33,684 nt of DNA from Candidatus Izemoplasma acidinucleici (GTDB lineage: Bacteria > Bacillota_I > Bacilli_A > Izemoplasmatales > Izemoplasmataceae). The notes below the pieces were generated by a model that was not told where the DNA came from, ran no database searches, and was given only the letters and a program-made list of their open reading frames with translations. Positions 1-14,141 of this stretch are shown piece after piece. The number at the start of each line of letters is the position of its first letter. Position 1 is the stretch's first letter. The position numbers and the translations under genes are program-made. The stretch spans positions 1 to 33,684 of the forward strand of contig SDWO01000130.1 of assembly GCA_004195325.1 (NCBI GenBank), read 5' to 3'.

Positions 1-348
1 AAGGATTAAACAGTTTACTACGATTAAACTTAAGAATGTTCCTAAACTAATATATAAATCGTAAAGTTTCCATTCCATAAAGATTTCTAATATTGTAACC
101 AATCCTGCGATTATAACAATAAATATTGGAATACGTACTTCTTGAGGTACATAGTTTCTGATTAACGAAATAATCAAGTTACTAAATACTAGTACGAGAA
201 TTACTCCTGCACCCATTCCTAGTGCGTCACTTACAACAGATGTAACTGCCAATGTTGGACACATTCCTAAGAATTGTACGAATGTAGGATTTTGTTTAAA
301 GAAACCATTTGTGAAAACTTGCATATGAGACTTTTGATGTTTTGCCAT
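1..348 (-). CDS. rnfE: Rnf electron transport complex subunit E (partial)
   Basis: Integral membrane subunit of the ion-translocating Rnf complex; RnfA and RnfE form the two related six-helix subunits. I translated the minus strand from ATG at 348. It begins MAKHQKSHMQV and contains the family signatures NGFFKQNP, QFLGMCPTLAVT, LGMGAGVILVL and VRIPIFIVIIAG. About 116 residues are visible, covering the first three or so membrane segments; the C-terminal part lies beyond base 1. The start overlaps the rnfG stop (TAATG), and its AGGAGGT ribosome binding site lies inside the last codons of rnfG, so the two are translationally coupled. RnfA is a close homologue, but the cytosolic N-terminal extension and the GMGAGV motif favour RnfE. 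Subunits A and B presumably follow outside the window. Confidence 0.9.
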   Translation of the reverse strand, partial: MAKHQKSHMQVFTNGFFKQNPTFVQFLGMCPTLAVTSVVSDALGMGAGVILVLVFSNLIISLIRNYVPQEVRIPIFIVIIAGLVTILEIFMEWKLYDLYISLGTFLSLIVVNCLIL

Positions 349-2645
349 TAGTTTCCACCTCCTACGGTGTTATCTTCATGATATTGTGCGATTGCTTCAA
401 GAGCTGATCTCATACTACCTGTTGTAGTAGTTACTCCGGCCCATGAATCAATGTTTACTTGTGTAGCTGTTATACTACTAATTTGAATATTTTCATATAA
501 ATCCAAGAATGTAGATGTATTAAATTCTTCTGAACCTGAATAATCAGCGTATTCTGAAGCTGATGCTTCATCCCATGATGAAATGTCGGAAATAATATAC
601 AGTGTTTGTGTTAACCCACTATTATCAACACCCCATGTGTATTGAGCATTTAAGAAACTCCCTGGAGCATATCCATAGTACACATAACCAATAACGTTAC
701 TGTTTACATCCAATGCTTCATAGATATTTCTAATTCCACCATCAAATGGGAAATCTATATATACTTCATTAAATGAATCTGCAGTTGGATAAGCTGCCTG
801 TAAATTACCATTTGCAGTTGTCTGTGAAGCAGGTCTAGCAAATTCTAATCCTAAAACTTCTTCGACATAATATCTTGCTACATCTCTAACGCTAATTTCG
901 ATTGCTCCACCAGTAAATGATGAACCAGCAATAGAATCAATATCGTAATTAGCAGTCTCAACATCTATTCCTATATATTGAAGACCGTATGCGTCTAAGA
1001 AATATCCATCTCTAAATCCTTGCGTATCTGTACTATCTAATAAGACAAACCCTTGGAATGTTTTATCAGTATTGATTGCCAACAAGAATGTGTTAACTGT
1101 ATTTCCAGATGCGATGTTTGCTCCGCCACCATCGGCAACAAAGATATATCCTAATACTGCATCTGATCCGTCTTTCACTTCATAAGTACCAACGATCAAT
1201 TCATCAACAGTATTTAGTGATGTAACATCAGTAATACTACCAAATCCTGGATATAAGATTGAAGCTTCAATTGTTACTCTGTCTAATAATGTAGGTTCCA
1301 CTTCTATAATCGGTAATTTGTCCATGAATTCAACTCTATAGAATTGAACAACGTTCCATAACCCATCACCAAGTGCATTAGATGTGTAAGTAGCTCCACC
1401 AGGAGCATCTATTTGACCATACATTGCCAAGATGTGATTCATGTTTGTAAATTGTGCTAAGTATTCTTCTGCTTCTATTTTATCACCGATACCATCAGTA
1501 TCTCCTTGTGATATAATAATTAATTCATTAATATTATTTGTTTCTCTGTCGAATTCTATTGAGAATTTAATAGTACTTCCATTTTGGAACCCAGGTACTT
1601 CAACAGTCAAGTTAACTAGTAAACTGTTTTCTTCGACTTTAGTAATTCCTGTGTTTCCTAAATAGTAATCTGTAGTAGTATCTACTATAGGTTCAACGTA
1701 AGGAACAAATCCTTCAATTGTTTCTCTGTGGTATAAATATACTTCTTCAAATGTTTTTTCAAATTTACCTAATGTTGATGGATAAGTAGCTCCACCTAAA
1801 TCATCAAAATTATTATTCATTGCATCTTCAATTGTCATATTTAAGAATTGCTCTGCAAATTCTGAATCTGCGATATGAGCACCATATATATCAGTGTCAT
1901 TTGCTTCAATAATTGATAATGATTTGATTGTGCTATCTGCCTCATTAACTGTGAATTTGTAAGTTGTTGGAAGATTTGTATATCCGATAAATTCAACAGT
2001 ATAAATATACTCTACTAAGATTCCATCTTTTTGAACTTCTTCAACTGACAATACACTGCTTGGTAAATCACTTAAGGTATCAGTAATATCAGTAGTTACA
2101 ACACCTAGGAATACATTGTTATGGAATTCAATTACTTTATTGAAACTATCTTTCCAACCATTAGTTGTGAAAGTAGCTCCAGCAATTCCATCGAAGTTCC
2201 CTGCTGATAAATCTGAAATAGTAAGTCCCTCTAATTGAGTCCAATAAGCTGGATCTCCAAGTTTGATACCATAACCTGGGGAATCCTTAGCTGATAATGT
2301 TTTGTATCCTGTTACATTTCCAAGTTCATCAAATCCGAGCATATAGATGTTTCCTTCTTCGAATCCTTTGAACTCAGCTTGGTAAACATATCCAAGTCCT
2401 TCATAATAATAAATTCCAGTAATTCCAGTGTCACCAACGTCTAATGTTTCATCTTCATCTAACGCGTTTAACACTGCGATTGGATGAATTGCTGCACCTT
2501 CCAATACTTCATCTTTTGCTTCATTAGCTCTTGCAGCTGCTGCTAATTCGATTTCTCCTCGTAAATTATCTTCAACTAGGAATACAGAAACCATCATTAC
2601 CACAACTACAAATGTAAGAGTTAGAACGATTTTAATATGTTTCAT
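348..2645 (-). CDS. rnfG: Giant multi-FMN RnfG-like subunit with five FMN-binding-like repeats
   Basis: Sits in the rnfG slot (rnfD-rnfG-rnfE) but is 765 residues, where ordinary RnfG has about 200. One N-terminal membrane helix (about residues 4-24) is followed by an extracytosolic part with five consecutive FMN_bind-like units. Each ends in a flavinylation-type motif: GATFT (T158), GATYP (T287), GATYT (T419), GSSFT (574-578) and GVTTTT (737-742). Units 1-3 keep the G-A-T of the S/T-G-A-T motif in which ApbE attaches FMN to Thr; units 4 and 5 are degenerate. The repeats are diverged (about 100-145 residues apiece), so this is old tandem duplication and not an assembly repeat. It starts at an ATG overlapping the rnfD stop (TAATG), with AGGAGGGA upstream. 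Likely role: pass electrons from RnfD/E through several covalent flavins outside the membrane. Confidence 0.88.
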   Translation of the reverse strand: MKHIKIVLTLTFVVVVMMVSVFLVEDNLRGEIELAAAARANEAKDEVLEGAAIHPIAVLNALDEDETLDVGDTGITGIYYYEGLGYVYQAEFKGFEEGNIYMLGFDELGNVTGYKTLSAKDSPGYGIKLGDPAYWTQLEGLTISDLSAGNFDGIAGATFTTNGWKDSFNKVIEFHNNVFLGVVTTDITDTLSDLPSSVLSVEEVQKDGILVEYIYTVEFIGYTNLPTTYKFTVNEADSTIKSLSIIEANDTDIYGAHIADSEFAEQFLNMTIEDAMNNNFDDLGGATYPSTLGKFEKTFEEVYLYHRETIEGFVPYVEPIVDTTTDYYLGNTGITKVEENSLLVNLTVEVPGFQNGSTIKFSIEFDRETNNINELIIISQGDTDGIGDKIEAEEYLAQFTNMNHILAMYGQIDAPGGATYTSNALGDGLWNVVQFYRVEFMDKLPIIEVEPTLLDRVTIEASILYPGFGSITDVTSLNTVDELIVGTYEVKDGSDAVLGYIFVADGGGANIASGNTVNTFLLAINTDKTFQGFVLLDSTDTQGFRDGYFLDAYGLQYIGIDVETANYDIDSIAGSSFTGGAIEISVRDVARYYVEEVLGLEFARPASQTTANGNLQAAYPTADSFNEVYIDFPFDGGIRNIYEALDVNSNVIGYVYYGYAPGSFLNAQYTWGVDNSGLTQTLYIISDISSWDEASASEYADYSGSEEFNTSTFLDLYENIQISSITATQVNIDSWAGVTTTTGSMRSALEAIAQYHEDNTVGGGN

Positions 2646-3772
2646 TATAAAATCCCTCCTAACGTAACTACTATTGCATTAATGCTTGATTCTTCTATTT
2701 GTCCTTTTAACATAAATCCAATAATGAATGTTACTCCAACAACAGCAATAGTGATACCTACTAATGTTTTGAGTAATGCTTTTTTATTTGAATGCTTTAC
2801 AGTTCTATTTAAGAATGGAGTTATCATATTACCAAATAATACGGCATAGATTAATCCTTCTACATTACTACTTAATGTTCTAAATACCATCATTAAGATA
2901 GCGACTGTAACTGCGTAAATTAATTTTGTTTCTCTTGATGTTGGTGTGCTTACTGTCTCACTAATAAAGAATACTGCACCAAATACTGCAAGTCCGGTAA
3001 CGATATTAATTAAAACATAACCTAAAGCCATTTCTCCAAAACCAAATATGATAAATCCAATACCTAGTGACATTACTAATACAGTAAGTAAATAAGTCCC
3101 ACTGATACGTAAGTCAATTACTTTTGTAACACATAGATAAGCAAATAATAAACCAAGCACAGCTACACTAGTACTTCCGATACTTATTGATTGATAATTA
3201 CCAATGATTAATGGCAATACACTTTGAAGTTCAAATGTTGTGTTTGTTGTGATTGCTAATTTAAGTGTTTCTAAAGGTGTAACAATATCTGAAGCTAAGT
3301 GTCCAGCTCCAAATGCACTAAAAGCAAACAATGCTCCTACAAGTGCAGGGTTGAAGATGTAGAATCCATATCCTCCAAATACTATTTTACCAATGTATAC
3401 TCCAACAAATACAGCCAGTGCTAGTACAAAGATTGGAGCGTTAATTGGTAATAATAATGCGATTAAGATCCCTGTGTTAATTGGATCTACAAATCCTTTA
3501 TAAGAACTGAATTTTGAAGTATTTCCTTCACTTAATGCATAGAATAATTCAATCACAACACTGATAACTGATGCGATTGCGATCATTGAAAATACTTTGA
3601 ATGATTGTTCTAATCCTGATGTGAATAATGTAACATCTGGGTATGTGTAAAACCCGTTTAAGATGACTGCTGCTAGTGCAGCTATAATTAATGCGATGTG
3701 TAAGTTTAGAGAACGTTTGTAAGTATGCTCACCGTTAGTAACGATAGGAGGCTTTTTAGTAACAAATTTCAT
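2645..3772 (-). CDS. rnfD: Rnf electron transport complex subunit D
   Basis: Polytopic membrane subunit of Rnf (NqrB/RnfD family). Signatures are GGYGFYIFNPALVG (about 133-146), the SIGSTSVAVLG stretch (about 197-207) and ETVSTPTSRETKLIYA near 272-287, which corresponds to the family's TxPxT...G segment. It has about nine or ten hydrophobic helices. The family's covalent FMN motif D-x-x-S/T-G-A-T-P-L appears here only as DIVTPL (D162-L167): the threonine is present but the preceding S-G-A is gone. I chose the second of two adjacent ATGs (3772) because it lies 7 nt from the AGGAG of TAGGAGTGATATG; the first (3775) is also possible. The TAG in that string is the rnfC stop. Confidence 0.9.
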   Translation of the reverse strand: MKFVTKKPPIVTNGEHTYKRSLNLHIALIIAALAAVILNGFYTYPDVTLFTSGLEQSFKVFSMIAIASVISVVIELFYALSEGNTSKFSSYKGFVDPINTGILIALLLPINAPIFVLALAVFVGVYIGKIVFGGYGFYIFNPALVGALFAFSAFGAGHLASDIVTPLETLKLAITTNTTFELQSVLPLIIGNYQSISIGSTSVAVLGLLFAYLCVTKVIDLRISGTYLLTVLVMSLGIGFIIFGFGEMALGYVLINIVTGLAVFGAVFFISETVSTPTSRETKLIYAVTVAILMMVFRTLSSNVEGLIYAVLFGNMITPFLNRTVKHSNKKALLKTLVGITIAVVGVTFIIGFMLKGQIEESSINAIVVTLGGIL

Positions 3773-3782
3773 CATATCACTC

Positions 3783-5000
3783 CTATCCAACACGACGTTT
3801 TGCACGTCGTACCCATTCTAATACGTTTATATTTGATGGACATGTATATGTGCATAATCCACATTCTATACATGCACCTGTATCTAAATCTACAATTCGT
3901 TCGTTTACGTTTCTCATCTCAGCATCCATTATGTTCTGAGGAAGGATTCCTACAGGACATACATCATTACATTCTCCACATTTTGTACAAACATCTTCTT
4001 CTAATTCTATATACTCTTGGAAATTAATTGTATCAACATTTAATGTGATACTTGTTTCATCTGTTGTTAATTGGTTTCCTGTTGTGAAACTTCCGTAATG
4101 TAACACCATTTCGTCAACTTCATTATATCCACCAAGGTCAGAAACAATTTCAGATAATTTCGTTCCGACTACTACTTCATAAATAACATTTTCTTTTATC
4201 CCATCACCTGTGATTGCTACTTGTCTTGAATTTGATACTTTTCCAAGGACAACTGCATCGTAAACTATTTTAGCTGTATCTACTTTGACGTATAATACTC
4301 CATCACTAAGTAAGTCTGGTGAAACTGGTTTTTTGATTAATTTTGAAATAACTTTAACATCAGATCCATTTACTTTTTGTAATTTAACAGTTTCAAGTCG
4401 CATGTCTTTATCAACGATTGCTTCCCCTAAACTATTAAAGGCAAATGGTTCCATATCTTTATCTGCGATTACTGTTACAGTTTCAGCGTTTGCTGCAACT
4501 TTTAGTAATTCAATACCTTGTGCAATGTGTTCTGCATATTCGTTCACAAATAAGTAATCTGTTTTTAAGAATGGTTCATTTGTAAATGAAGCATTCACAA
4601 CTACATGTTTGATTGGTCTATCAAATTTAAGAGGAGTAAATATTCCATCTACATTTATTTGTTCCAACCCTAATTCTAGTAGTCTAGCTCTTACTTGAGA
4701 AGTTGATGCATTTTCAAATGCTTTTAATTCTATTTGATTGTCTTCCATGTTATTTTCGATAACACAGTGATCTACAGTTTTACCAAAACGATCTTGTAAT
4801 TCTTCAAACCCTTTAACAGTTCCACTCACACTAGAAATAACTGGTAATTTGATTTGACCTTTATATTTATATCCAAGGACAGTTCCTACTAATACTGCGT
4901 CGCCTTCTTCTACTTTTACGTTGGCGATTTTGTATGTTGGATCTGTTAGAGGAAGATAAACAAATTTAGGTTCTAAATAACTTTTATATTCGTTAATCAT
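3783..5000 (-). CDS. rnfC: Rnf complex subunit C, atypical NADH/FMN site
   Basis: Peripheral cytosolic subunit of Rnf, about 405 residues. It has an N-terminal barrel-sandwich region, a Rossmann-like region, an SLBB-type region (about 277-312) and two C-terminal [4Fe-4S] motifs (C338/341/344/348 and C377/380/383/387), ending VRRAKRRVG. In ordinary RnfC, as in NuoF, a GGAxFPT motif binds FMN/NADH and is followed by NGAECEP. Here the equivalent segments read VDGIFTPLKF (117-126) and NASFTNEP (136-143), so the glycine-rich loop and the ECEP motif are lost. The protein may therefore accept electrons from something other than NADH; the hydrogenase gene is directly upstream. The start is ATG 5000 behind AGGTGA; a GTG at 5009 lies within that ribosome binding site. 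Confidence 0.88.
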   Translation of the reverse strand: MINEYKSYLEPKFVYLPLTDPTYKIANVKVEEGDAVLVGTVLGYKYKGQIKLPVISSVSGTVKGFEELQDRFGKTVDHCVIENNMEDNQIELKAFENASTSQVRARLLELGLEQINVDGIFTPLKFDRPIKHVVVNASFTNEPFLKTDYLFVNEYAEHIAQGIELLKVAANAETVTVIADKDMEPFAFNSLGEAIVDKDMRLETVKLQKVNGSDVKVISKLIKKPVSPDLLSDGVLYVKVDTAKIVYDAVVLGKVSNSRQVAITGDGIKENVIYEVVVGTKLSEIVSDLGGYNEVDEMVLHYGSFTTGNQLTTDETSITLNVDTINFQEYIELEEDVCTKCGECNDVCPVGILPQNIMDAEMRNVNERIVDLDTGACIECGLCTYTCPSNINVLEWVRRAKRRVG

Positions 5001-5009
5001 ATTATTCAC

Positions 5010-6788
5010 CTATTCCTTTGTGAAACCTTTTTGAGTGTAATGTGTATGCAAGTATTTGTGAGCGACTTTACTATTTGGTTCTTCTAAGAAGTCTTCGTAC
5101 GCTTCCAATACTGCTTTGTTCTCGTGTGATTTTCTAATTGGTAAATCAGTGCTGTCTTGATCGTATAGACTTTGTGATCTTCTTTGTATAACTTCATGCA
5201 TTGGAATATCGTTTGTGATTGGCATTCCACCACCATTTACACATCCACCAGGACAAGCCATGAATTCTATGAAATGATATTGTTTCTTACCAGCATCTAA
5301 TATTTCATACATGCGTTTAAGTGCTGATCCACCATGAACTACCGCAATGTTAAGTTTTATATTTGTTTTAGGTAATTTGATCGATGCTTCTTTGATTGTT
5401 CCTTCATAATCTTTACTAAATGATACTCCACGAACATCATGGAATTCTACTGATTCTAAAGGGACACCTTCTAAGATTTCATACACACTTCTTAAAGCTG
5501 CTTCTGCAACTCCTCCAGAAGCTCCAAATATCGTTCCTGCTCCACTAAACTGAGCAAGTTGTCCTCCAAGTTCTAAATCTTCTAAACGTTTGAAGTCGAT
5601 ACCTTTTCGTTTTATCATCTTAGCCAATTCTCTTACTGTTAATACTGCATCAACATCACGTACGCCATCAACTTCCATTTCTTCACGAGAAATTTCATAT
5701 TTCTTAGCGGTACACGGCATAATTGATACTACTGCTATATTTTCTGGTTTTTCATCTAAATATTTTTTTCCGTAATAAGCTTTAATCATTTGACCTTGCA
5801 TCATATGTGGAGATTTAGCAGTTGATAAATTTTCCATATATTCAGGTTTGTACATTTCTGTATATCTAACCCATGCAGGACAACAAGATGTGAACATTGG
5901 TAATGTTCCACCATTTTTAATGCGCCCGATTAGTTCAGTACCTTCTTCTAAAATAGTAAGGTCCGCTGCCCAGTTTGTATCTGTTACTTCGTCAAATCCA
6001 AGTAAATCTAAAGCTCTATACATTTTACCTTGTGTCTCTCTAACAGGAGTTCCGATATCATATCCGAATTCTTCAGCTAGTGAAGCACGTACTGCAGGAG
6101 CTACTTGTACAAATACTTTTTTGTTTTGATCTTTTAATAACGATTCCACTTTCTTAATGTGGTCCGTTTCATATAGAGTACCCGTTGGACATGTTTTAGT
6201 ACATTGCCCACAAAAAATACATCCAGCCTCATCAAATGCAAGACCTGGAGTTGGAGATACGATAGGGTTGATTCCATCATCATCTCTAAATTTTAATACT
6301 TTAGCAGTTACAACTTCACTACATACTGCAACACAACGTTTACATAAAACGCATTTGCTTTGATCTTGTGAAATACCTGTCCCAAAGATTTTTTCTGGAT
6401 TTCTCCCAATCCCTGGACCAAATTCTTCAAAGACAACATCATTTGCTTTTAGTAAATCGTAGAATTCACACATTCCATCTTTTGGACATCGCCAACAATC
6501 GAATCTATGTTTTGCCGCAAGTAATCCTAATGTCGTTCTTCTTGCTTTTATAACATCATCTGAATCAGTTTGAATCACCATTCCGTTTACAACTTCTGTG
6601 TTACAAGCTGACACTAAATCTTGTTCTCCTTCAACTTCTACTACGCAGATACGACAGAATCCGATTTCATTGATTTCCTCAATGAAACATAATTTAGGAA
6701 TCTCTATACCAATACTCTTTGCAGCTGTAAGGATAGTTGTGCCATTTTTTACTTTAAGTTCAATACCATTTATTGTAATTTTAGCCAT
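5010..6788 (-). CDS. hydA: [FeFe] hydrogenase, group A, NuoG-like N-terminus
   Basis: Catalyses reversible H2 oxidation/proton reduction in the cytosol. Domain order over 592 residues: [2Fe-2S] ferredoxin-like domain (C34, C45, C48, C62), His-Cys3 [4Fe-4S] site (H94, C98, C101, C107), two [4Fe-4S] ferredoxin motifs (C146-C156 and C190-C200), then the H-cluster domain with all three motifs: TSCCPAW (300-306), MPCTAKKYE (358-366) and MACPGGCVNGGG (510-521). This is the modular layout of clostridial HydA and of the alpha subunit of trimeric HydABC. No HydB or HydC is nearby except the small Fe-S protein upstream, and rnfC follows 9 bp downstream with its ribosome binding site overlapping this gene's TAG. 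The context suggests direct coupling to Rnf or to the ferredoxin pool it uses. ATG 6788 follows TAGGAGG. Confidence 0.96.
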   Translation of the reverse strand: MAKITINGIELKVKNGTTILTAAKSIGIEIPKLCFIEEINEIGFCRICVVEVEGEQDLVSACNTEVVNGMVIQTDSDDVIKARRTTLGLLAAKHRFDCWRCPKDGMCEFYDLLKANDVVFEEFGPGIGRNPEKIFGTGISQDQSKCVLCKRCVAVCSEVVTAKVLKFRDDDGINPIVSPTPGLAFDEAGCIFCGQCTKTCPTGTLYETDHIKKVESLLKDQNKKVFVQVAPAVRASLAEEFGYDIGTPVRETQGKMYRALDLLGFDEVTDTNWAADLTILEEGTELIGRIKNGGTLPMFTSCCPAWVRYTEMYKPEYMENLSTAKSPHMMQGQMIKAYYGKKYLDEKPENIAVVSIMPCTAKKYEISREEMEVDGVRDVDAVLTVRELAKMIKRKGIDFKRLEDLELGGQLAQFSGAGTIFGASGGVAEAALRSVYEILEGVPLESVEFHDVRGVSFSKDYEGTIKEASIKLPKTNIKLNIAVVHGGSALKRMYEILDAGKKQYHFIEFMACPGGCVNGGGMPITNDIPMHEVIQRRSQSLYDQDSTDLPIRKSHENKAVLEAYEDFLEEPNSKVAHKYLHTHYTQKGFTKE

Positions 6789-6797
6789 AATATCCTC

Positions 6798-7151
6798 CTA
6801 ATATTTTTTTACAGGTTGATATAGTGTATTGTAATTATTTTCAAGTACTACCTCGAAGTTCTTACCAATATCTAACCCGACACTGCATCGAGAGCTGCGC
6901 AAGTTGTAAGTTAATTGCTCAAGTTCTTTTAAAGTCTTAAGCGTTGCTGTCTCGTTAGTATACATATCTAATAGTTGTTCCATGCGAATAACACCATCAC
7001 GACACGGCGTACATTTACCACAAATTTCAGGATGCTGTCCAACTAAGTAGCTTTTCATATTCTGTACTAAATCTTGTTCACTTAGTTTAGTTTCTGCATC
7101 AAGAATCCAACTCTCAAATAATTCTTTAACATTTTGAGACTCTGTACTCAT
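6798..7151 (-). CDS. Orphan NuoF-type C-terminal [4Fe-4S] domain protein
   Basis: A 117-residue protein that corresponds to only the Fe-S domain found at the C-terminus of NuoF/HydB (NADH-dehydrogenase F iron-sulfur region). It carries C44-G-K-C47-T-P-C50-R and a fourth ligand C89 in SSRCSVG, with the usual helix bundle between. The FMN/NADH-binding and SLBB parts of NuoF are absent. It is the first gene of the leftward hydrogenase-Rnf operon, and its TAG stop forms part of the hydA ribosome binding site (TAGGAGG). It probably forms a small electron-transfer subunit joining the hydrogenase to a partner. ATG 7151 is chosen because AGAGGTG lies upstream; a longer in-frame reading to 7220 would run through the promoter. 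Confidence 0.85.
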   Translation of the reverse strand: MSTESQNVKELFESWILDAETKLSEQDLVQNMKSYLVGQHPEICGKCTPCRDGVIRMEQLLDMYTNETATLKTLKELEQLTYNLRSSRCSVGLDIGKNFEVVLENNYNTLYQPVKKY

Positions 7152-7188
7152 TGCGTTCACCTCTTTCTGTGTATTCCATACTGATAAC

Positions 7189-7197
7189 AGTATAGCA
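7189..7197 (-). promoter_or_regulatory. Extended -10 promoter of the hydrogenase-Rnf operon
   Basis: The minus strand reads TGCTATACT, an extended -10 element, about 38 bp upstream of the first ATG. No good -35 hexamer is seen at 16-18 bp, only T-rich sequence. It lies in the divergent spacer between the hydrogenase-Rnf operon and the rightward lipoprotein genes. Confidence 0.6.
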
Positions 7198-7277
7198 AAA
7201 TCAGGTGCAAAAATAAACACATTATTATATATTAATTATAATTAAAACATTAAAATAATATTATATATATGAAAGAG

Positions 7278-7286
7278 TGTTATAAT
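7278..7286 (+). promoter_or_regulatory. Extended -10 promoter of the rhodanese lipoprotein gene
   Basis: TGTTATAAT, a perfect extended -10, lies 29 bp before the ATG at 7316, and the GGAGG ribosome binding site is at 7302-7306. The -35 region is AT-rich without a clear hexamer. It is back to back with the opposite-strand promoter about 80 bp away. Confidence 0.65.
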
Positions 7287-7315
7287 GAAGACGATTATTT
7301 TGGAGGTAGATAGAA

Positions 7316-8134
7316 ATGAAGAAAATATTATTGCTTCAATTGGTGCTTTTCTCAGTTCTTTTAACAGGTTGCAAAGAAAAATATCCTTTGGAAGAAGAGC
7401 CAGAATTAATAGAAATAAATTCAGAAGATTTCATTACAATGGACATGTTAGATCAATATATGGAGAGATCAGATGTTCAATATGTAGATTTAAGAAATAT
7501 TGATGCTAAATTCAATAGTGGATATATTAGATTTTTTGAATCCATTCCGTTTTTTGAGTATTTAGATAACAGAGCTTTTGTTAGAAATGGAACTTACGAG
7601 TTTAATGCTGACCAAATTATAAACGAGCATATTATAAAAGGGATTTTTGACAAGGAAAAAGCAATATTCTTGTACGCTGATGGATGTGTTAGAAGTGGGT
7701 ATCTAAGAGATGTTCTTTATCACCTTGGATATGAACGAGTTTATATTCTAGGTGGGTTTTACGAGTATGAAGGTGAATACAAAGTTCTTGGGGATGGGTC
7801 CTTTAACTTAGGTACTTCTAGTTATTTAGTCCACGTTGCAAACGATGGTATAACATACCGTCTAGGTGCTACATACGATATGACTAAATCGATAATCGGT
7901 CTTCGAATTGATATCGTAGATTCAGATGGTATATCAATGAGAAGTGAAAATTATAGCAACACAGTAAATTACAATGAGCAGTTGACCATATTAGAGGATT
8001 ATATCGTTTCTCAATATACAAACCTCTACACAGTTCACTCTTACTTATCAGATGATATCTTAGATAATTACGATGATATTGATGGGTATTCACTAGGATT
8101 CGATCAAGACCTTATTGCCTTGTTTGGTAAGTAA
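7316..8134 (+). CDS. Rhodanese-domain lipoprotein with unknown C-terminal domain
   Basis: A 272-residue predicted lipoprotein: signal peptide with lipobox LLTGC, lipidated at C19. Residues about 42-155 look like a rhodanese domain: YVDLRN (56-61), a conserved-type strand IFLYADGC (117-124) with candidate catalytic C124 in the loop CVRSGYL, then GYERVYILGGF (138-148). Such domains carry sulfane sulfur on the cysteine. The C-terminal ~110 residues match nothing I recognise. The gene is divergent from the hydrogenase-Rnf operon and next to two flavin-related lipoprotein genes, so a surface redox or sulfur-handling role is inferred. The start is set by GGAGG 9 bp upstream and by the signal peptide. 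Confidence 0.8.
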   Translation: MKKILLLQLVLFSVLLTGCKEKYPLEEEPELIEINSEDFITMDMLDQYMERSDVQYVDLRNIDAKFNSGYIRFFESIPFFEYLDNRAFVRNGTYEFNADQIINEHIIKGIFDKEKAIFLYADGCVRSGYLRDVLYHLGYERVYILGGFYEYEGEYKVLGDGSFNLGTSSYLVHVANDGITYRLGATYDMTKSIIGLRIDIVDSDGISMRSENYSNTVNYNEQLTILEDYIVSQYTNLYTVHSYLSDDILDNYDDIDGYSLGFDQDLIALFGK

Positions 8135-8137
8135 TAT

Positions 8138-8156
8138 TAGTTTTAAAATAAAACTA
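8138..8156 (+). terminator. Weak inverted repeat after the rhodanese gene
   Basis: TAGTTTTA-AAA-TAAAACTA forms an 8-bp, almost GC-free stem just after the stop, without a clean T-run. It may be a weak terminator or simply AT-rich chance pairing. Confidence 0.25.
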
Positions 8157-8175
8157 TTAATTACGTTGATTTTTG

Positions 8176-8204
8176 TTGAATAAAGCAATTCTATAATTTA
8201 TAAT
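8176..8204 (+). promoter_or_regulatory. Sigma-70-type promoter of the FMN-binding lipoprotein gene
   Basis: TTGAAT (8176-8181), a 17-bp spacer, then TATAAT (8199-8204). The AGGGAGGAG ribosome binding site follows before ATG 8243. This gives the flavin lipoprotein its own promoter, apart from the rhodanese gene. Confidence 0.65.
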
Positions 8205-8242
8205 TATATAGTATTTCAAGTTAGAAATAGGGAGGAGAAATT

Positions 8243-8995
8243 ATGAAAAAATTAGTATTAGTATTGATTACATTGTTTATAACAGTTACGCTTTCTGCAT
8301 GTTCAGATTTATGCATTGGGGAATCATGTATATCTGAAACTGAAGTTATAGTTGAAGATGAAGATGAAGTTGAAGATGAAGAAATCGTTGCTTTAGAAAA
8401 TGTATTATATTATGATCACATCGACGGATTTGGTCTTCTAGATTTAGACCATGAAGCTTACATTCTATTTGAAGAGGAACTTCAAGGATATGTGAAATAT
8501 CAAGTTGCATATTTATCTTGTACTTGTAGAAATTCAAACGTTAACTACTGGCAAGTCATATATGTCGAAGTTAACAAATACACTGATGACGTTAGAGTAA
8601 TCTCGTTTGGCTATGATGATCCATCAGCTGAGCATCCATACTTAGCAGGTATGTGGGGAGATAGTTCACCAACTCCAGACTCTACTATTGAGGGTGGTGG
8701 AACAAAACCAGGTAAGACAACTGAAGATTTTACTACAATGTACATACCATGGTTATTAAACAAAACAATTGAGGACTTTGAAGGAATATCAGTATTCACA
8801 AACAAAGTTGGTGTTGGAGAAGTTTATGAAGGATTAAATACAGTAACAATCAATGATGCCTTTTATACAGACCCTGACACTCAAGAAGAAATAGATTTAA
8901 TTGATTCATTTAGTGGAGCTAGCGTTTCAACTAATAACATCATTCGTATTACAAAAACAATTCTTGAATATCACGAAGAGCATTACGGTAATTAA
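8243..8995 (+). CDS. FMN-binding-domain lipoprotein (predicted ApbE substrate)
   Basis: A 250-residue lipoprotein: signal peptide ending LSAC, lipidated C20. An acidic linker follows (about 32-48, mostly E/D). The body carries an SCTC motif (C93, C95) followed by RNSNVNYW, and residues about 140-246 end in an FMN_bind-like segment with DSFSGASVST (221-230). D-x-x-S-G-A-S/T is the site type that ApbE flavinylates, here probably on S227 or a nearby Thr/Ser. Further cysteines C24 and C29 lie next to the anchor. The ApbE gene is the next gene, which supports covalent FMN. It is likely a surface-tethered one-electron carrier, a possible partner of the multi-flavin RnfG. It ends in a strong terminator. 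Confidence 0.82.
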   Translation: MKKLVLVLITLFITVTLSACSDLCIGESCISETEVIVEDEDEVEDEEIVALENVLYYDHIDGFGLLDLDHEAYILFEEELQGYVKYQVAYLSCTCRNSNVNYWQVIYVEVNKYTDDVRVISFGYDDPSAEHPYLAGMWGDSSPTPDSTIEGGGTKPGKTTEDFTTMYIPWLLNKTIEDFEGISVFTNKVGVGEVYEGLNTVTINDAFYTDPDTQEEIDLIDSFSGASVSTNNIIRITKTILEYHEEHYGN

Positions 8996-9020
8996 AAAAA
9001 CAGACTTTGTCTGTTTTTTT
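8994..9020 (+). terminator. Rho-independent terminator
   Basis: A 12-bp perfect stem (A-run plus CAGAC / GTCTG plus T-run) with a TTT loop, beginning at the stop codon of the FMN-binding lipoprotein gene and ending in seven T residues. Confidence 0.9.
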
Positions 9021-9042
9021 ATTTGTAAGATATCAAAATGTA

Positions 9043-9071
9043 TTGAAGGTATAATCTAATTTTGTTATAAT
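9043..9071 (+). promoter_or_regulatory. Promoter of the ApbE gene
   Basis: TTGAAG (9043-9048), 17-bp spacer, TATAAT (9066-9071), also preceded by TG to give an extended -10 (TGTTATAAT). It lies 26 bp before the ATG. Confidence 0.75.
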
Positions 9072-9097
9072 AACTTTGTTTGAGAGGAATGATACAT

Positions 9098-10453
9098 ATG
9101 AAAAGACTACTTAGTCTATTATTAATTGCATTATTAGCAACAACTCTATCAGGTTGTAATAAAGAAGAAACATTACCTGACGAATATATATTTGAACTAA
9201 TAGGTACTCCGAGTGTTACATTACAGGTTGGAGACAATTTCGTAGATAAAGGATACATTGCACGTTACAACTTAGAAGATGTAAGCGGCAGCGTAACTTC
9301 TTCTAGTGATGTAGATACCACAAAGATCGGAACTTATAATCTTACGTATTCACTTGATCATAAAGGAAATACAATGTCATTAACAAGAACTGTTATCGTA
9401 GAATATGAGGATGTATATTGTTCAGATGTTTTAGATACAGACCTAACTGACACTGGATATGATAAATGCCAAGTAACATGGACTGAATTCTTAAATACAT
9501 ACGTTACATTGTCTATGTATGTACCAAATGATAATTCAATTGACTTAGGCGAAATAAAAAGCAATGTACAAACTATCTTAGCTTTATATACTATCATTAG
9601 TGATAAGTACACTGAATATGAATATATTGTTAATGTTTGGACAATAAATGAGAATCCAACACAGATACATACAATTTCAGAAGACTTATTCAATTTAATT
9701 GATTACACATTATTTGAACAGACAGATTTAGTTGATTTCTACAACGCTGCTCTAGAACCTGTATTAGAACTTTGGCATGACGCCAGAGAAGCTTGTAATC
9801 CTGAAGAGGTGTGCATTTTACCAGATATTGATGCATTAAATATAAGAAACCAGTACACAGATCCAACAAAGATTATTATGGATCGTGATAACTTAACAAT
9901 AACTATGGAAGAAAACATGGGTCTTGATTTGGGTGGTATAAGTAAAGGATATGTTTCACAACTAATCGTTGATTATTTAGAGACTACAGGACTTTACGGA
10001 TACATATTAAATAACGGACAATCAAATGTAAGTGTAGGTGGTATCAATCCACGTACCGATGATGGAAGTTTTACTATCGCAGTTACAGATCCAACTGATC
10101 CATACGATATAGCTCAGAAATACGGATACGCATGGGTGAAATTATTTGATGGAGAACAGTTAGTTACTTCTGGAGATTACCAAAAATTCTTTGAAGTTGA
10201 TGGAACAATTTATCATCACATAATTGATCCAGTTACGTTATTCCCGTTAAACCATACACGTGCAGTAAGTATAGTAACAGATAACGCTGCATTAGCAGAT
10301 TTATATAGTACAGCGATTTTCAATATGACACTTGAAGATGGAATTGCATTTGTTAATGACATTCCTGGTTTAGAAGCTATCTGGTATGAAACAGATGGAA
10401 CCATTGCTTACAGTGCTAATTTTGAAGATGATTATTTACAAGAATTAAGATAA
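9098..10453 (+). CDS. apbE: ApbE-family FAD:protein FMN transferase, lipoprotein with Ig-like domain
   Basis: Transfers FMN from FAD to Thr/Ser of extracytosolic flavoproteins; the candidate substrates are RnfG (leftward operon) and the lipoprotein just upstream. It is 451 residues: lipobox LSGC (C20); residues about 30-103 an Ig-like/DUF5011-type domain (QVGDNFVDKGY); ApbE domain from about 125 on. ApbE signatures: LDLGGISKGY (276-285), a GG-type strand ILNNGQSNVSVGG (303-315), HHIIDPVT (373-380), and the metal-site region D395-N-A...D401-L-Y-S-T405. An N-terminal Ig-like domain is uncommon for ApbE and may space the enzyme from the membrane. I chose ATG 9098 over upstream TTG and ATG codons because only it starts a proper signal peptide and lies 10 bp from GAGAGG. 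Confidence 0.92.
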   Translation: MKRLLSLLLIALLATTLSGCNKEETLPDEYIFELIGTPSVTLQVGDNFVDKGYIARYNLEDVSGSVTSSSDVDTTKIGTYNLTYSLDHKGNTMSLTRTVIVEYEDVYCSDVLDTDLTDTGYDKCQVTWTEFLNTYVTLSMYVPNDNSIDLGEIKSNVQTILALYTIISDKYTEYEYIVNVWTINENPTQIHTISEDLFNLIDYTLFEQTDLVDFYNAALEPVLELWHDAREACNPEEVCILPDIDALNIRNQYTDPTKIIMDRDNLTITMEENMGLDLGGISKGYVSQLIVDYLETTGLYGYILNNGQSNVSVGGINPRTDDGSFTIAVTDPTDPYDIAQKYGYAWVKLFDGEQLVTSGDYQKFFEVDGTIYHHIIDPVTLFPLNHTRAVSIVTDNAALADLYSTAIFNMTLEDGIAFVNDIPGLEAIWYETDGTIAYSANFEDDYLQELR

Positions 10454-10456
10454 AAC

Positions 10457-10484
10457 AAAAAGCGAGAATTTCTCGCTTTTTTTT
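10457..10484. terminator. Bidirectional terminator between apbE and the Gx gene
   Basis: AAAAAGCGAGA-ATT-TCTCGCTTTTT, an 11-bp perfect stem flanked by A- and T-runs, sits between two convergent genes and can serve both. Confidence 0.9.
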
Positions 10485-10983
10485 ATTCGTACAAGTATAT
10501 TTCTCTAAATCGTTCACTTAATGTTTTCCCAGTTAAACCTACAAAGATACCTGTCGGTACTGCTATTACAATAAGAATCGGTAAGTAGAGTGCTATCTGT
10601 GGCAAATCTAATATGAACATCGCCATTGCTATTTGTCCAACTGCGTGTCCTATAGACCCCATAACACTTACACTGACAACACTAAATATTTTTAATCTTC
10701 TAAACGACCACATTAAGATAAAGGCAAGCATTCCACCAGACAAACTAAGTAAGAATGTTGGTAAATTAAATCCTCTTAATAAAGGTACAAGTAAGATTCT
10801 TAAAACTACTATCATAAATGCATCTTTTTCACTAAATGTATATAGTAATACAATAGTGATTATATTAGCCAGTCCTAGTTTCGCACCTACAATACCAAAT
10901 GTTGGTAAAAAGGATTCTACAATACTAAGTACTATGCTCATTGCTAGTAAAACACCTAGCATAACTGCTTTCTTTGTATTCAT
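10483..10983 (-). CDS. Gx transporter / 'heptaprenyl diphosphate synthase component I' family membrane protein
   Basis: About 166 residues, hydrophobic, five or so membrane helices. Family-type features are LPTFGIVGAKLGLANIITIV near the N-terminus and GHAVGQIAMA further on. The common database name (heptaprenyl diphosphate synthase component I) is historical; the fold resembles ECF-type substrate-binding components. In many Firmicutes it neighbours ApbE and FMN-binding proteins (recalled), as it does here head to head, so a role in the extracytosolic flavin system, for example in supplying a cofactor or a quinone precursor, is possible but unproven. I chose ATG 10983 because AGGTGA lies 4-5 bp before it; a GTG at 10992 is part of that ribosome binding site. 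Confidence 0.8.
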   Translation of the reverse strand: MNTKKAVMLGVLLAMSIVLSIVESFLPTFGIVGAKLGLANIITIVLLYTFSEKDAFMIVVLRILLVPLLRGFNLPTFLLSLSGGMLAFILMWSFRRLKIFSVVSVSVMGSIGHAVGQIAMAMFILDLPQIALYLPILIVIAVPTGIFVGLTGKTLSERFREIYLYE

Positions 10984-11010
10984 ATCTATCACCTATATTT
11001 TGCTTGTTTC

Positions 11011-11039
11011 ATTGTAACAAAGATTTTAAGAAAGTTCAA
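11011..11039 (-). promoter_or_regulatory. Promoter of the Gx gene
   Basis: On the minus strand TTGAAC (11039-11034), 17-bp spacer, TACAAT (11016-11011), with TG one base before the -10. It lies 28 bp before the start. Confidence 0.75.
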
Positions 11040-11041
11040 AT

Positions 11042-11065
11042 AAAAAAGACGATAAACGTCTTTTT
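11042..11065 (-). terminator. Terminator of the PadR-HAAS-DegV operon
   Basis: AAAAAGACG / CGTCTTTTT 9-bp stem with a five-base loop and T-run on the minus strand, right after the DegV stop. Confidence 0.88.
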
Positions 11066-11927
11066 ATTTTGATAAATTAAAATACGCAATACCTACAGTA
11101 CCTTCACCAGTATGACATCCGATTACAGGAGTTATTGGTGCTTCAAGGTATTTATATCCAGGATATGCTTCTTCTATTTTAGCTTTCACTAAATCTAGAC
11201 CTTCTTGGTTATCGGAGGTATCATAAGTAATAATGAAATCATCAAGATCTTTTAAATCGTTTAAAACCAATTCAACCATTCTAGATAGAGATTTCTTCAT
11301 TGTTCTTACTTTTTCAAACGAAACTATTTTACCTTCGTCATTTACTTCTAATATCGGTTTTATTTTAAACATACTACCCATGAATCCAGCAGCTCCACTT
11401 AATCTTCCGTTTGCAACAAACAAACGAAGATTATCTACCATGAAGTATTGTTTCCTGTTTATTCTTAAAATCTCTAAGAATGAGTATGTTTCATCTAATG
11501 ATTTACCCTCTTTAAATAAACGTAACGCTTCTAGTGTTAAATACCCTTCACTAATAGCGGCGTTTCTTGAGTCTAATACTTTAATTGTTAGTGGACCCTC
11601 ATATAGATTGGTTTGAGCTGCGATAACTCCGTACGTCCCACTTAACTCGCTTGATATAGTAATAACAAGTACTTCTTCATATCCATCTTTTTCTAATTGT
11701 TCTAATAAATCAAGATATTCACCAACACTTGGCATTGAAGAAGATGGTACAAGTTTACTATCGGCTTTAATTTTATTATAAAAATCTTCAGCTGTGATGT
11801 CTAAGAAGTCTTCGTATACATCGTCTCCTAGTAATATTTTCATTCTTAAGATTCTTAAATCTTTTTCATTTAAATTCAAATAATCAAGGCAACTAGTCGA
11901 TGTTGCGATAATGGCTTTTTTAGTCAT
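11064..11927 (-). CDS. DegV family (FakB-like) fatty acid-binding protein
   Basis: DegV/FakB proteins bind a fatty acid and present it to the kinase FakA for phosphorylation and entry into phospholipid. At 287 residues it has normal length. Features: early TSTSCLDY, VPSSSMPSVGEY (about 58-69, in place of the usual TSQPS loop), LSGTYG (about 94-99), NGRLSGAAGFMGSMFKIKP (about 171-189) and the C-terminal CHTGEGTVGIAYF, where families have a conserved H-x-G-P-G. It is last in a PadR-HAAS-DegV operon, overlapping the HAAS gene by 8 bp with AAGGAGA upstream. It is about half identical by eye to the second DegV protein at 13209-14060. No fakA is in the window. Confidence 0.9.
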   Translation of the reverse strand: MTKKAIIATSTSCLDYLNLNEKDLRILRMKILLGDDVYEDFLDITAEDFYNKIKADSKLVPSSSMPSVGEYLDLLEQLEKDGYEEVLVITISSELSGTYGVIAAQTNLYEGPLTIKVLDSRNAAISEGYLTLEALRLFKEGKSLDETYSFLEILRINRKQYFMVDNLRLFVANGRLSGAAGFMGSMFKIKPILEVNDEGKIVSFEKVRTMKKSLSRMVELVLNDLKDLDDFIITYDTSDNQEGLDLVKAKIEEAYPGYKYLEAPITPVIGCHTGEGTVGIAYFNLSK

Positions 11928-12348
11928 CTCTGTTCTCCTTTTCGCTTCCCTTGCGATTTAGATACTTATATATCATTGATAATGGCCAAAACAATAAAGC
12001 TAGTGATGGTATTACAAACCAAATTACTTGTTTGAAATATAAATTAACATACGCTAATATACCAATGATGATGATTACAGATACGATGCTGAACAGAATA
12101 TCATTTTTATAATGAGATAGGTTCTTAATACGAAATCTTTTTTTATGTATTTTTATATCTTCAAAATCTTCAATACTTCCAAACTCAGTTACAGTTTTGT
12201 TAATGGCATCCTCAAGTAGATATCCGTTTTCTACTAAATCTTCTACTTTCTCAGTCAACATTTCTGTGACTGATTTTATTAATTTTTCGCGCTCTTCTTT
12301 AGGGTAGTTTTTAAATGTATTTTTAACAAAGTTTCTAATTCTTTTCAT
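11920..12348 (-). CDS. HAAS-domain membrane protein (PadR partner)
   Basis: 142 residues. The N-terminal ~60 residues form a short helical HAAS/DUF1700-type domain (EREKLIKSVTEML...LLEDAINKTVTEFGS), the typical companion encoded next to PadR regulators. Two membrane helices follow (about 82-101 and 106-124), then a charged tail (KGSEKENRDD). These proteins are thought to act as membrane-bound partners or anti-regulators of the PadR protein. It starts 2 bp after the padR stop with GGAGG before the start, and overlaps degV downstream. Confidence 0.75.
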   Translation of the reverse strand: MKRIRNFVKNTFKNYPKEEREKLIKSVTEMLTEKVEDLVENGYLLEDAINKTVTEFGSIEDFEDIKIHKKRFRIKNLSHYKNDILFSIVSVIIIIGILAYVNLYFKQVIWFVIPSLALLFWPLSMIYKYLNRKGSEKENRDD

Positions 12349-12350
12349 GA

Positions 12351-12674
12351 TTACGCCTCCAATAAAGATTCAATGATTAGTTTGAATTCTTTCCATTCAC
12401 TGATTTTTTCTTTATAGTATGTTTTCCCAAACGTAGTAATACGATAATACCTTCTCTTTTTCCCATGTGTAAGAGTCCCAATATATGATTCTATTAACCC
12501 GCGTTCCTCTAATCTTTTAACTACAGAGTAGAGTGTTGCTTCTTTAATTATAAATTGATTTTCGGTGCGTTCTTTGATGGTATTTGATATTTCATATCCA
12601 TATCTGTCTTGTTCGATAATCAATTTTAGTATTACTGTTTCTAAATGTCCCCGAATTAAATCAGATTTAATCAT
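12351..12674 (-). CDS. PadR family transcriptional regulator
   Basis: 107 residues: winged-helix domain with LIRGHLETVILKLI, the DRYGYEISN turn, ATLYSVVKRLEERGLIE recognition helix and wing (GKKRRYYRIT). Short C-terminal helix, as in subfamily 2 PadR proteins. First gene of the PadR-HAAS-DegV operon, behind AAGGAGGTG. It probably represses its own promoter through a dyad at 12698-12724 that surrounds the -10. Its ligand is unknown. Confidence 0.92.
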   Translation of the reverse strand: MIKSDLIRGHLETVILKLIIEQDRYGYEISNTIKERTENQFIIKEATLYSVVKRLEERGLIESYIGTLTHGKKRRYYRITTFGKTYYKEKISEWKEFKLIIESLLEA

Positions 12675-12697
12675 AAAAAAACACCTCCTTAAATCTA

Positions 12698-12724
12698 AAT
12701 TTGTATAATTTATTTTAACAAATT
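12698..12724. promoter_or_regulatory. Dyad around the -10 of the padR promoter (candidate PadR operator)
   Basis: AATTTGT (12698-12704) and ACAAATT (12718-12724) form a perfect 7-bp inverted repeat with a 13-bp centre. The centre holds the predicted -10 TAAAAT, so a bound dimer would block it. Confidence 0.5.
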
Positions 12725-12740
12725 AAGGTCTATAAGTAAA
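12712..12740 (-). promoter_or_regulatory. Promoter of the padR operon
   Basis: Minus strand: TTTACT (12740-12735), 17-bp spacer, TAAAAT (12717-12712). It lies about 38 bp before the padR ATG. Confidence 0.5.
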
Positions 12741-12752
12741 GGTGTTTTAAGT

Positions 12753-13190
12753 TTAGTATTTTTCTTTGAAAAAGTTACTAATGTTTGTAAGTGAACGTAA
12801 AAGTATTGCGTCTTCTTCCATATTCATATCTTGAATTACTGCATTAATCATTTCTTCGTGGAATTCATCGTGTGCTTTCATTATCTGATATGCTTTTTGA
12901 GTTAAGTATACATAGACTTTACGTTTATCGTCTTTGTCTCTATTTCGTTCAACATATCCTTTTTGAACTAAGCGATTTATAGCAGTTGTCAGTGTTCCTA
13001 CAGTAACGCGTAGATTTGCCGCTGTTTTTGACATTGTAGGTTCTTTTGTTTTACTAATCGCTTCTAAAACATGTACTTCATTCATCGATAAATCGACTCC
13101 ACGTTCACGTAGCATTTGTCCTTCGATACTTAAAATATGATGAAATACTTCAACTAATAATTCATTAATTACTTTTTTTGTTTCATTCAT
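12753..13190 (-). CDS. fabT: MarR family regulator, FabT-like
   Basis: 145 residues, MarR winged helix. From memory of streptococcal FabT it lines up closely and ungapped in the core: SMNEVHVLEAI, VTVGTLTTAINRLVQKGY, then VERNRDKDDKRKVYVYLT, an HDEFHEEM segment and LTNISNFF at the end. FabT represses fatty acid synthesis genes when bound to acyl-ACP. Here the gene lies 18 bp behind a DegV/FakB gene, and the operon leader carries a TTTGA-N3-TCAAA palindrome like the FabT box, so autoregulated control of fatty-acid uptake is likely. The ribosome binding site is AAAGGGGG. No fab genes are present in the window. Confidence 0.82.
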   Translation of the reverse strand: MNETKKVINELLVEVFHHILSIEGQMLRERGVDLSMNEVHVLEAISKTKEPTMSKTAANLRVTVGTLTTAINRLVQKGYVERNRDKDDKRKVYVYLTQKAYQIMKAHDEFHEEMINAVIQDMNMEEDAILLRSLTNISNFFKEKY

Positions 13191-13208
13191 ATTTCAGACC
13201 CCCTTTAA

Positions 13209-14060: not shown

Positions 14061-14072
14061 AATAAACCTCCT

Positions 14073-14093: not shown

Positions 14094-14103
14094 CCTATAA
14101 AAA

Positions 14104-14132: not shown

Positions 14133-14141
14133 ATAAACAGT

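Follow-up and report, generated by a model that had tools for sequence, protein, structure and literature searches.

What does an Rnf complex exchange electrons with when its RnfC has no site for NADH and its operon also encodes a hydrogenase? We address this question for a locus within the window, the whole 33,684-nt stretch of DNA analysed here. Such loci occur in relatives of Candidatus Izemoplasma, bacteria that live freely and have no cell wall. An ordinary (canonical) Rnf is encoded in the same genome as this locus; a 2018 publication on these bacteria states only 'two Rnf complexes' (PMC6256511).

Organization of the operon

Profile searches bore out the gene order, identities and coordinates that a preliminary description had given for a hydrogenase-led Rnf operon. 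On the minus strand, nuoFc (encoding the C-terminal Fe-S domain of NuoF) is followed by hydA, rnfC, rnfD, a multi-flavin rnfG and rnfE, with gaps or overlaps of ~0–22 bp:

6798..7151, minus: NuoFc, stand-alone NuoF C-terminal [4Fe-4S] (N3-type) domain, ~117 aa (PF10589, 46 bits)
5010..6788, minus: HydA, [FeFe]-hydrogenase, 592 aa (PF02906, 296 bits; TIGR02512, 463.5, cut-off 405.95)
3783..5009, minus: RnfC without FMN/NADH site, with two [4Fe-4S] clusters, 408 aa (best PDB matches 7zc6_C, 9eri_C, 8ahx_C)
2645..3805, minus: RnfD, membrane flavin subunit, likely start 3775 or 3772 (PF03116, 177 bits)
348..2645, minus: RnfG-like protein with multiple FMN_bind domains, 765 aa (PF04205)
1..348, minus: RnfE, N-terminal part, running on into contig C141 (99-bp exact overlap)

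Because the window end and contig C141 overlap exactly, we attribute the truncation of rnfE, whose 5′ part lies in the window, to an assembly break. Contig C141 contributes the remainder of rnfE, rnfA and an rnfB encoding 101 aa.

Loss of the FMN/NADH site in RnfC

Alignment to solved RnfCs (7zc6, 9eri, 8ahx) upheld the two loop substitutions and the two retained [4Fe-4S] sites reported in the preliminary description:

4623..4652, minus: VDGIFTPLKF, RnfC residues 120–129, replacing the FMN glycine-rich loop GGAxFPTxxK (alignment)
4572..4595, minus: NASFTNEP, RnfC residues 139–146, replacing NxxECEP (alignment)
3840..3989, minus: two CxxCxxCxxxC [4Fe-4S] motifs, C341–C351 and C380–C390 (invariant in 13/13 orthologues)

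The solved proteins have GGATFPTHVK at the first position and NAAECEP or NGAECEP at the second. Two further motifs that the earlier account did not mention, YPxGxE and GGPMMG, are missing as well. When 30 canonical RnfCs were compared with 17 orthologues of the window RnfC, residues G140, G141, F144, P145, E241, G332 and P333 (A. woodii numbering; all seven at or beside the FMN/NADH site) were found in 29–30 of the former and in none of the latter, which rules out chance or misalignment as the source of the motif differences. The alignment, proposed earlier as a check for an intact nucleotide site elsewhere in the protein, left no known RnfC or NuoF site; judged by its sequence, the window RnfC cannot read NADH through any of them. 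Since the FMN/NAD+ site is missing, we do not class the locus as a ferredoxin:NAD+ Rnf.

The AF2 model of RnfC alone (pLDDT 74.6, with a poorly predicted C-terminal Fe-S domain) had RnfC as its top Foldseek match; it supports the fold and leaves the pocket undecided. It is very improbable that this protein still binds FMN/NADH through other residues, making the complex an ordinary ferredoxin:NAD+ Rnf. A Pfam Complex1_51K match of 32 bits (cut-off 31.2) and the fold as modelled would accord with such binding, but all seven site residues are absent from the 17 orthologues, four separate motifs are lost, and a canonical Rnf is already available to the cell. Decay of the genome's only Rnf is ruled out too, the canonical complex being present and the unusual one conserved.

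NuoFc and HydA

The part that RnfC lacks relative to NuoF/HydB would be filled by NuoFc, whose CGKCTPC plus C motif and C-terminal half are invariant in 13 orthologues. By supplying this missing piece, NuoFc could form with RnfC a NuoF-like adaptor free of flavin, and HydA would dock there via its NuoG-like N-terminal clusters. Stand-alone NuoFc occurs in 15 of 395 class genomes, only those with the FMN-less-RnfC type of locus. From NADH-dependent HydABC or group A6 enzymes the window operon has just the NuoF C-terminal domain and no HydB/NuoF FMN and NADH site; the NuoE-NuoF-NuoG set with an FMN site, typical of the complex I N-module, is likewise missing and was seen only in the G062 relative described below.

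HydA comprises an N-terminal [2Fe-2S] site, three accessory [4Fe-4S] sites and the H-cluster, with these motifs:

5877..5891, minus: H-cluster motif L1, TSCCP, residues 300–304 (motif alignment)
5694..5720, minus: H-cluster motif L2, MPCTAKKYE, residues 357–365 (motif alignment)
5226..5267, minus: H-cluster motif L3, EFMACPGGCVNGGG, residues 508–521 (motif alignment)

Each H-cluster site residue checked is present in the window HydA, so H2/H+ plausibly takes the place of NADH at RnfC. The H2/ferredoxin-linked Rnf suggested in the preliminary description thus fits the window organism, whose genome also encodes the maturase HydF; it does not extend to the gene cluster as a whole. The group A motifs TSCxP, MPCxxKK and ExMxCxGGC are found in only 7 of 17 orthologues, and in the other ten the H-cluster site is degenerate, with the cysteine ligands almost all gone in two. 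A hydrogenase universal to the gene cluster is therefore ruled out. In seven rows the L1 change affects only the first Cys of TSCCP, which we take to be C299 of CpI, a proton-relay position, and neighbouring active-site residues are lost too. Loss of cluster ligands is ruled out as a reading of this change, as these rows retain the four ligand positions.

All 15 accessory Fe-S cysteines are retained in every aligned row, the degenerate ones included. Within the same family, the Fe-S half of HydA is 67–83% identical to that of the window where the H-domain fell to 38–50%. Persistence of this half and its cysteines despite H-domain drift suggests that selection holds the wiring, and by sequence the conserved property of the HydA arm is an electron wire rather than H2 catalysis. 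These data also bear on whether HydA and NuoFc make up a soluble hydrogenase of the usual kind, linked to ferredoxin or NADH, that just shares a transcript with an unusual Rnf. HydA does resemble group A6 and A. woodii HydA1, but we consider this unlikely given the strict co-occurrence of NuoFc with FMN-less RnfC, the retention of HydA after active-site loss, and an operon with no NADH-binding partner.

Membrane subunits and proposed electron path

The RnfA, D, E and G membrane core and its cofactor sites are all encoded. Cluster cysteines of RnfA/E are conserved in 14/14 rows. The 101-aa RnfB consists of the N-terminal anchor and the first Fe-S site, which is conserved, and has no C-terminal ferredoxin domains; the ordinary Rnfs of the class that we inspected lack these domains likewise, ruling out a short RnfB as a special trait of the locus. 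With these cysteines and the RnfB site conserved, the U-shaped electron chain of solved Rnf structures (PMC9588780, PMC11889175) is complete save for the FMN of RnfC. The flavin chain may differ from that of known Rnf, since of the SGAT flavinylation motif of RnfD the family of the window keeps a lone Thr (TPLxxLK), and the other family has Tyr there. RnfG has at least three FMN_bind domains with motifs GATFT, GATYPS and GATYTS (two stretches match PF04205 at E ≤ 0.001, four at relaxed E); having more than one such domain with a flavinylation motif, it is predicted to be multi-flavinylated.

The sequences themselves reveal the operon, the loss of the FMN site, the clusters that remain, which H-cluster sites are complete and which degenerate, and how the parts are conserved and co-occur; from these we infer the physical assembly of an Rnf-HydA complex and its electron-transfer order, direction and ion coupling. 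Our preferred reading, held with about even confidence, is a complete ion-pumping Rnf-type redox complex (RnfB-A-E-G-D-C) in which a NuoFc-HydA arm has replaced the NAD-reading head. With FMN gone, RnfC would be left with its two [4Fe-4S] clusters. In the window organism, electrons would most likely pass from ferredoxin through RnfB, the RnfA/E [2Fe-2S] cluster, the RnfG FMN and the RnfD flavins to the two RnfC [4Fe-4S] clusters, NuoFc and HydA, where H+ would be reduced to H2. The path would be reversible and coupled to Na+ or H+ export, so that the complex would function overall like an Ech-type ion-pumping hydrogenase made of unrelated parts. Several relatives have lost the H-cluster; in these the arm would do no more than pass electrons along Fe-S clusters, probably to a second HydA-NuoEF (NADH) unit.

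Flavin and rhodanese genes next to the operon

Three conserved or flavin-related genes lie upstream in the opposite orientation:

7316..8134, plus: rhodanese-like lipoprotein, conserved neighbour (PF00581, 22.1 bits, just below cut-off)
8243..8995, plus: lipoprotein with a weak FMN-binding-like domain (SGASVST), conserved neighbour (under Pfam cut-off)
9080..10453, plus: ApbE flavin transferase with lipobox (PF02424, 153 bits)

The rhodanese-like protein has an exposed Cys in YADGC(V/I)RSGY that is conserved in 10 relatives, and no second ApbE was found in the genome of the window. As far as sequence tells, the multi-flavin RnfG, ApbE and the flavin and rhodanese lipoproteins leave a third electron route open, to extracytosolic acceptors. 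Such an RnfG and such lipoproteins would be superfluous for a pump and count against the pump model.

The complex could accordingly serve extracytosolic respiration, a possible but rather doubtful reading in which electrons from H2 (or from ferredoxin/NADH via Fe-S clusters) would run through HydA, NuoFc and RnfC to RnfD, the multi-flavin RnfG, the lipoproteins and an acceptor outside the cell, for example sulfane sulfur or metal oxides, and in which the pumping of ions would be secondary. Besides the FMN_bind domains of RnfG, it is favoured by the presence of ApbE, the FMN-like lipoprotein and the conserved-Cys rhodanese lipoproteins beside the operon in nearly all relatives. A reduced rnfC′-rnfD′ version without RnfA/E/G/B occupies the same chromosomal place next to apbE in relatives, so electron transfer from the cytoplasm to the outside may be the shared function. 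PMC8238504 proposes such a second path for multi-flavinylated RnfG, and growth of isolate zrk13 is promoted by thiosulfate (PMC8397711). However, sulfur genes did not respond obviously in the transcriptomes of zrk13 (PMC8397711), the score of the FMN-like lipoprotein is under Pfam's cut-off, and RnfA/E/B, needless for a one-way conduit, are retained with all cluster cysteines.

Distribution and a possible link to NADH

The order nuoFc-hydA-rnfC-D-G-E-A-B is uninterrupted in ten other loci, nine from the same family and one (L114) from another, and a close RnfC is found in 14/37 same-family genomes. A contig scan with short exact peptide patterns, which recover close relatives only, covered the wider distribution, and 392 genomes drawn from the phylum revealed no further family with the locus; the locus may have a distant origin elsewhere. 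That most relatives appear to have lost H2 catalysis counts against the pump model.

In the G062 relative, nuoE-nuoF-hydA(b)-nuoFc-hydA(a)-rnfC directly follows rnfDGEAB in one gene run, which combines NADH-type NuoEF, two HydAs apparently without a working H-cluster, and the NuoFc-HydA-RnfC unit of the window. Because this run joins NADH-type NuoEF and two HydA-like relays to RnfC, NADH may re-enter indirectly. The earlier claim that NADH is not the partner therefore holds for RnfC itself and not necessarily for the whole system. A C157-type HydABC NADH hydrogenase might pass H2, or electrons directly if both H-clusters are lost, to the Rnf-linked HydA. In line with such indirect exchange, of the 8 other genomes whose Rnf-linked HydA is degenerate, 5 have a degenerate C157-type HydA too, against 0 of 5 genomes with an intact Rnf-linked HydA (Fisher p 0.03, G062 included, kinship ignored). 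Both HydAs keep all Fe-S cysteines, and the B160-type hydrogenase is intact in most genomes with a degenerate Rnf-linked HydA. We nevertheless hold this exchange only tentatively: the sample is small and phylogenetically dependent, the G062 rows are very long branches, just one of the two HydAs is degenerate in three genomes, and the C157-type and Rnf operons lie apart in most. With similar reserve, C157-type HydABC and Rnf-linked NuoFc-HydA can be read as one route, NADH - HydB - HydA - HydA - NuoFc - RnfC - RnfDGEAB. H2 would shuttle between two live H-clusters in some species; in others, where both have decayed, electrons would pass directly via Fe-S clusters.

Comparison with known redox complexes

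The locus shares with the Rnf complexes of A. woodii (9eri), C. tetanomorphum (7zc6) and A. vinelandii (8ahx) six subunits in one operon, the RnfA/E cluster cysteines, and the RnfC fold with two [4Fe-4S] clusters; it differs in the RnfC without FMN/NADH site, the added NuoFc and HydA, the multi-flavin RnfG and the (class-wide) short RnfB. NADH-linked HydABC/HydAB [FeFe]-hydrogenases and the complex I N-module (NuoEFG) resemble it in the N-terminal clusters of HydA and the N3-type NuoF C-terminal domain, but here RnfC and the detached NuoF C-terminus stand in for the FMN/NADH-binding HydB/NuoF, and the membrane arm is Rnf. With Ech/Mbh energy-converting [NiFe]-hydrogenases only the proposed function is shared (ferredoxin-linked, ion-pumping, membrane-bound). 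The operon encodes [FeFe] HydA and Rnf subunits, the putative catalytic subunit and pump, with no homologous parts: neither [NiFe] large and small nor complex-I-like membrane subunits. NqrA of Na+-NQR is an RnfC homologue that also lost redox cofactors, but it lost the Fe-S clusters too, whereas the window RnfC lost only FMN and kept the Fe-S wire. NQR/RNF-like and multi-flavinylated RNF systems have a multi-flavin RnfG, ApbE and a weakened RnfD flavinylation site in common with the locus; the NQR/RNF-like ones use NAD(P)H, and the passages of PMC8238504 and PMC11334425 consulted report no hydrogenase or NuoF domain.

As the preliminary description had supposed, the open-access literature searched yielded no well-described complex of this composition and no FMN-less RnfC paired with a HydA; the gene order may be mentioned in the 2016 genome paper on Izimaplasma (doi 10.1038/ismej.2016.55), which lies outside this search. 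We read the locus as an Rnf whose arm resembles complex I and HydABC, which suggests a chimera of these enzymes that has not been described before.

If the assembly is true, the NAD-reading head of Rnf would be exchangeable, and an [FeFe]-hydrogenase could become energy-converting once docked to Rnf; the open-access literature searched has no report of this combination. The Rnf-HydA complex is testable in relatives that have been enriched or cultured (HR2, ZiA1, probably HR1; possibly isolate zrk13); HydA is intact in the HR2 type and degenerate in the HR1 type. In the textbook view, NuoG of complex I descends from a hydrogenase. This gene cluster, with its intact, half-decayed and dead HydAs (as classified by sequence) and its persisting Fe-S wire, would form a stepwise parallel to that origin. 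If the single-route reading is true, these bacteria would offer a living, repeated re-enactment of the change from hydrogenase to NuoG relay, on an unrelated ion pump.

Organization of the hydrogenase-Rnf gene cluster

Gene calls on the window, which belongs to a draft genome of 1.93 Mb, bear out the order given in the preliminary description: NuoF-type Fe-S domain, hydrogenase, rnfC, rnfD, rnfG, rnfE. The genes form one tight run.

Genes of the run in the window
7151-6798, minus strand: nuoFc, first gene of the run, a stand-alone NuoF C-terminal [4Fe-4S] domain
6788-5010, minus strand: hydA
5009-3783, minus strand: rnfC
3805 or 3775 to 2645, minus strand: rnfD
2645-348, minus strand: rnfG
truncated at base 1, minus strand: rnfE, last of the run

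The truncated end shares an exact 99-bp overlap with the end of C141, another contig of this genome, which carries the rest of rnfE, then rnfA and a 101-aa rnfB and, beyond them in convergent orientation, a gene for a rhodanese lipoprotein. Synteny in related genomes supports this join. Divergently upstream of the operon lie genes for a rhodanese-like lipoprotein, a weakly FMN-like lipoprotein and ApbE, the only one found in the genome. Rhodanese-like lipoproteins with a conserved Cys (window 7316-8134; locus L020, 8541-10439) occur on both cluster sides in nearly all relatives, a possible link to extracytosolic sulfur reduction.

RnfB is ~100-113 aa long and devoid of C-terminal ferredoxin domains in every Rnf of the class examined (loci L004, 10288-10620; L021, 9813-10154; L020, 10533-10838; also L073, L117, L118). 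Elsewhere in the window, an adjacent gene pair resembling NADP-dependent ferredoxin oxidoreductase (NfnB/GltA-like and FNR-like, 14142-16330) would be another redox-pool link. The last bases of the contig, 33667-33684, encode DVYKRQ, a peptide that remnants of sequencing adapters typically give; they are probably not genomic.

RnfC lacks the FMN site and is conserved with its partners

Comparison with three solved RnfCs and 30 canonical sequences revealed replacement of four motifs: the glycine-rich FMN loop, the ECEP loop, YPxGxE and GGPMMG. At seven positions the consensus is present in 29-30 of 30 canonical RnfCs and in 0 of 17 orthologues of the window protein, confirming the suspected loss of the FMN/NADH loops. 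The substituted residues are conserved in turn (VDGxxTxxxF, NEPF), and both [4Fe-4S] motifs, whose presence had already been noted, are invariant. The predicted RnfC structure best matches the RnfC fold, then NqrA and NuoF/HydB. The same genome also encodes a canonical RnfCDGEAB, whose RnfC has GGSGFPT and NAVECEP. In the RnfC tree, canonical sequences form one side of a fully supported branch; FMN-less ones group with support 85/88.

Among 37 genomes of the same family, 14 encode a close RnfC, with 47-58% identity against 28-34% for the canonical paralogues. The uninterrupted order nuoFc-hydA-rnfC-D-G-E-A-B was found at nine more loci within the family and at one (L114) from another family of the class, the remaining loci being interrupted by contig ends. 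Stand-alone NuoF domains were detected in 15 of 395 class genomes, every one with this kind of locus; every other match lay inside a long frame of NuoF type, save perhaps one in G078, whose open frame spans 190 aa.

The hydrogenase is intact in some lineages and degenerate in others

Window HydA has all H-cluster residues checked and scores 463.5 against TIGR02512 (cut-off 405.95), and HydF is encoded in the genome. The proposed H2 linkage is thus plausible for the window, but is not conserved across the group: cluster-linked HydAs form a single clade (support 100/100) in which 7/17 are intact and 10/17 degenerate, those degenerate proteins tested scoring 155-320, under the cut-off. Within the family, the Fe-S half is 67-83% identical to that of window HydA, while the H-domain is 65-74% identical in intact and 38-50% in degenerate proteins; all rows retain 15/15 accessory cysteines. 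What selection has maintained is therefore the wiring. The tree points to more than one loss of H2 chemistry.

One relative, G062, carries a single run rnfD-G-E-A-B-nuoE-nuoF-hydA(b)-nuoFc-hydA(a)-rnfC (locus L124, C22 132000-151000; run at 3429-16259), followed 3′ by a gene for a small uncharacterised membrane protein and cydA-cydB (cytochrome bd). Both its HydAs have lost H-cluster residues, its NuoF retains NADH motifs and its RnfC lacks the FMN site. HydA(b), on a very long branch, groups with modest support (89/90) with the second, HydABC-type hydrogenase of the window's genome (contig C157). This second HydA is intact in 5/5 genomes with an intact Rnf-linked HydA (G074 counted by nearest homologue) and degenerate in 6/9 with a degenerate one, G062 included (Fisher p 0.03, uncorrected for relatedness; G036 and G022 scored intact despite partial changes). 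In five of the genomes whose Rnf-linked HydA is degenerate, the C157-type HydA has likewise lost its H-cluster yet keeps all 15 Fe-S cysteines (loci compared: L023, on C157 itself; L164-L167, L170-L177, L180). The paired pattern and retained cysteines suggest that the two hydrogenases are functional partners. NADH may be reached via the second HydA, an idea that is partly compatible with both ion pumping and outward respiration by the Rnf.

A third Rnf-like set in the window's genome (L021 on contig C95, 4644-10154), rnfD-G-E-A-B without rnfC, lies immediately 3′ of cydA-cydB, and its RnfD lacks the flavinylation Thr.

A putative electron path

Cluster cysteines of RnfA/E, the first cluster of RnfB and the flavin motifs of RnfG are all present, as is, in the family's RnfD, the Thr aligned to A. 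woodii Thr156. The U-shaped electron chain of Rnf (PMC9588780, PMC11889175) is therefore complete as far as the RnfC clusters. Judged from the homologous HydABC and complex I, the wire would continue through NuoFc and then the NuoG-like clusters of HydA; NuoF contains the domain that NuoFc represents, whereas RnfC lacks it. With an intact HydA, the chain would end at H+/H2. Physical assembly, electron direction and ion coupling are inferred.

An outward respiratory function, in our view the less probable reading, is suggested by the multi-flavin RnfG (a type already known; PMC8238504), the lipoproteins around the operon and a reduced rnfC'-rnfD' pair that takes the cluster's chromosomal position in relatives. 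This pair (loci L067-L071, L074) encodes an RnfC' without the FMN site, has no RnfA/E/G/B genes nearby and, where complete, adjoins apbE.

In the open literature, where two Rnf complexes are mentioned for HR1, HR2 and ZiA1 (PMC6256511), an FMN-less RnfC with a hydrogenase was not found, in agreement with the earlier statement that no complex of such composition is well described. We class the system as a new Rnf variant with a hydrogenase/complex-I-like arm. For the window organism, we give about an even chance that it works reversibly as an ion pump of the ferredoxin:H+ (or H2:ferredoxin) kind.
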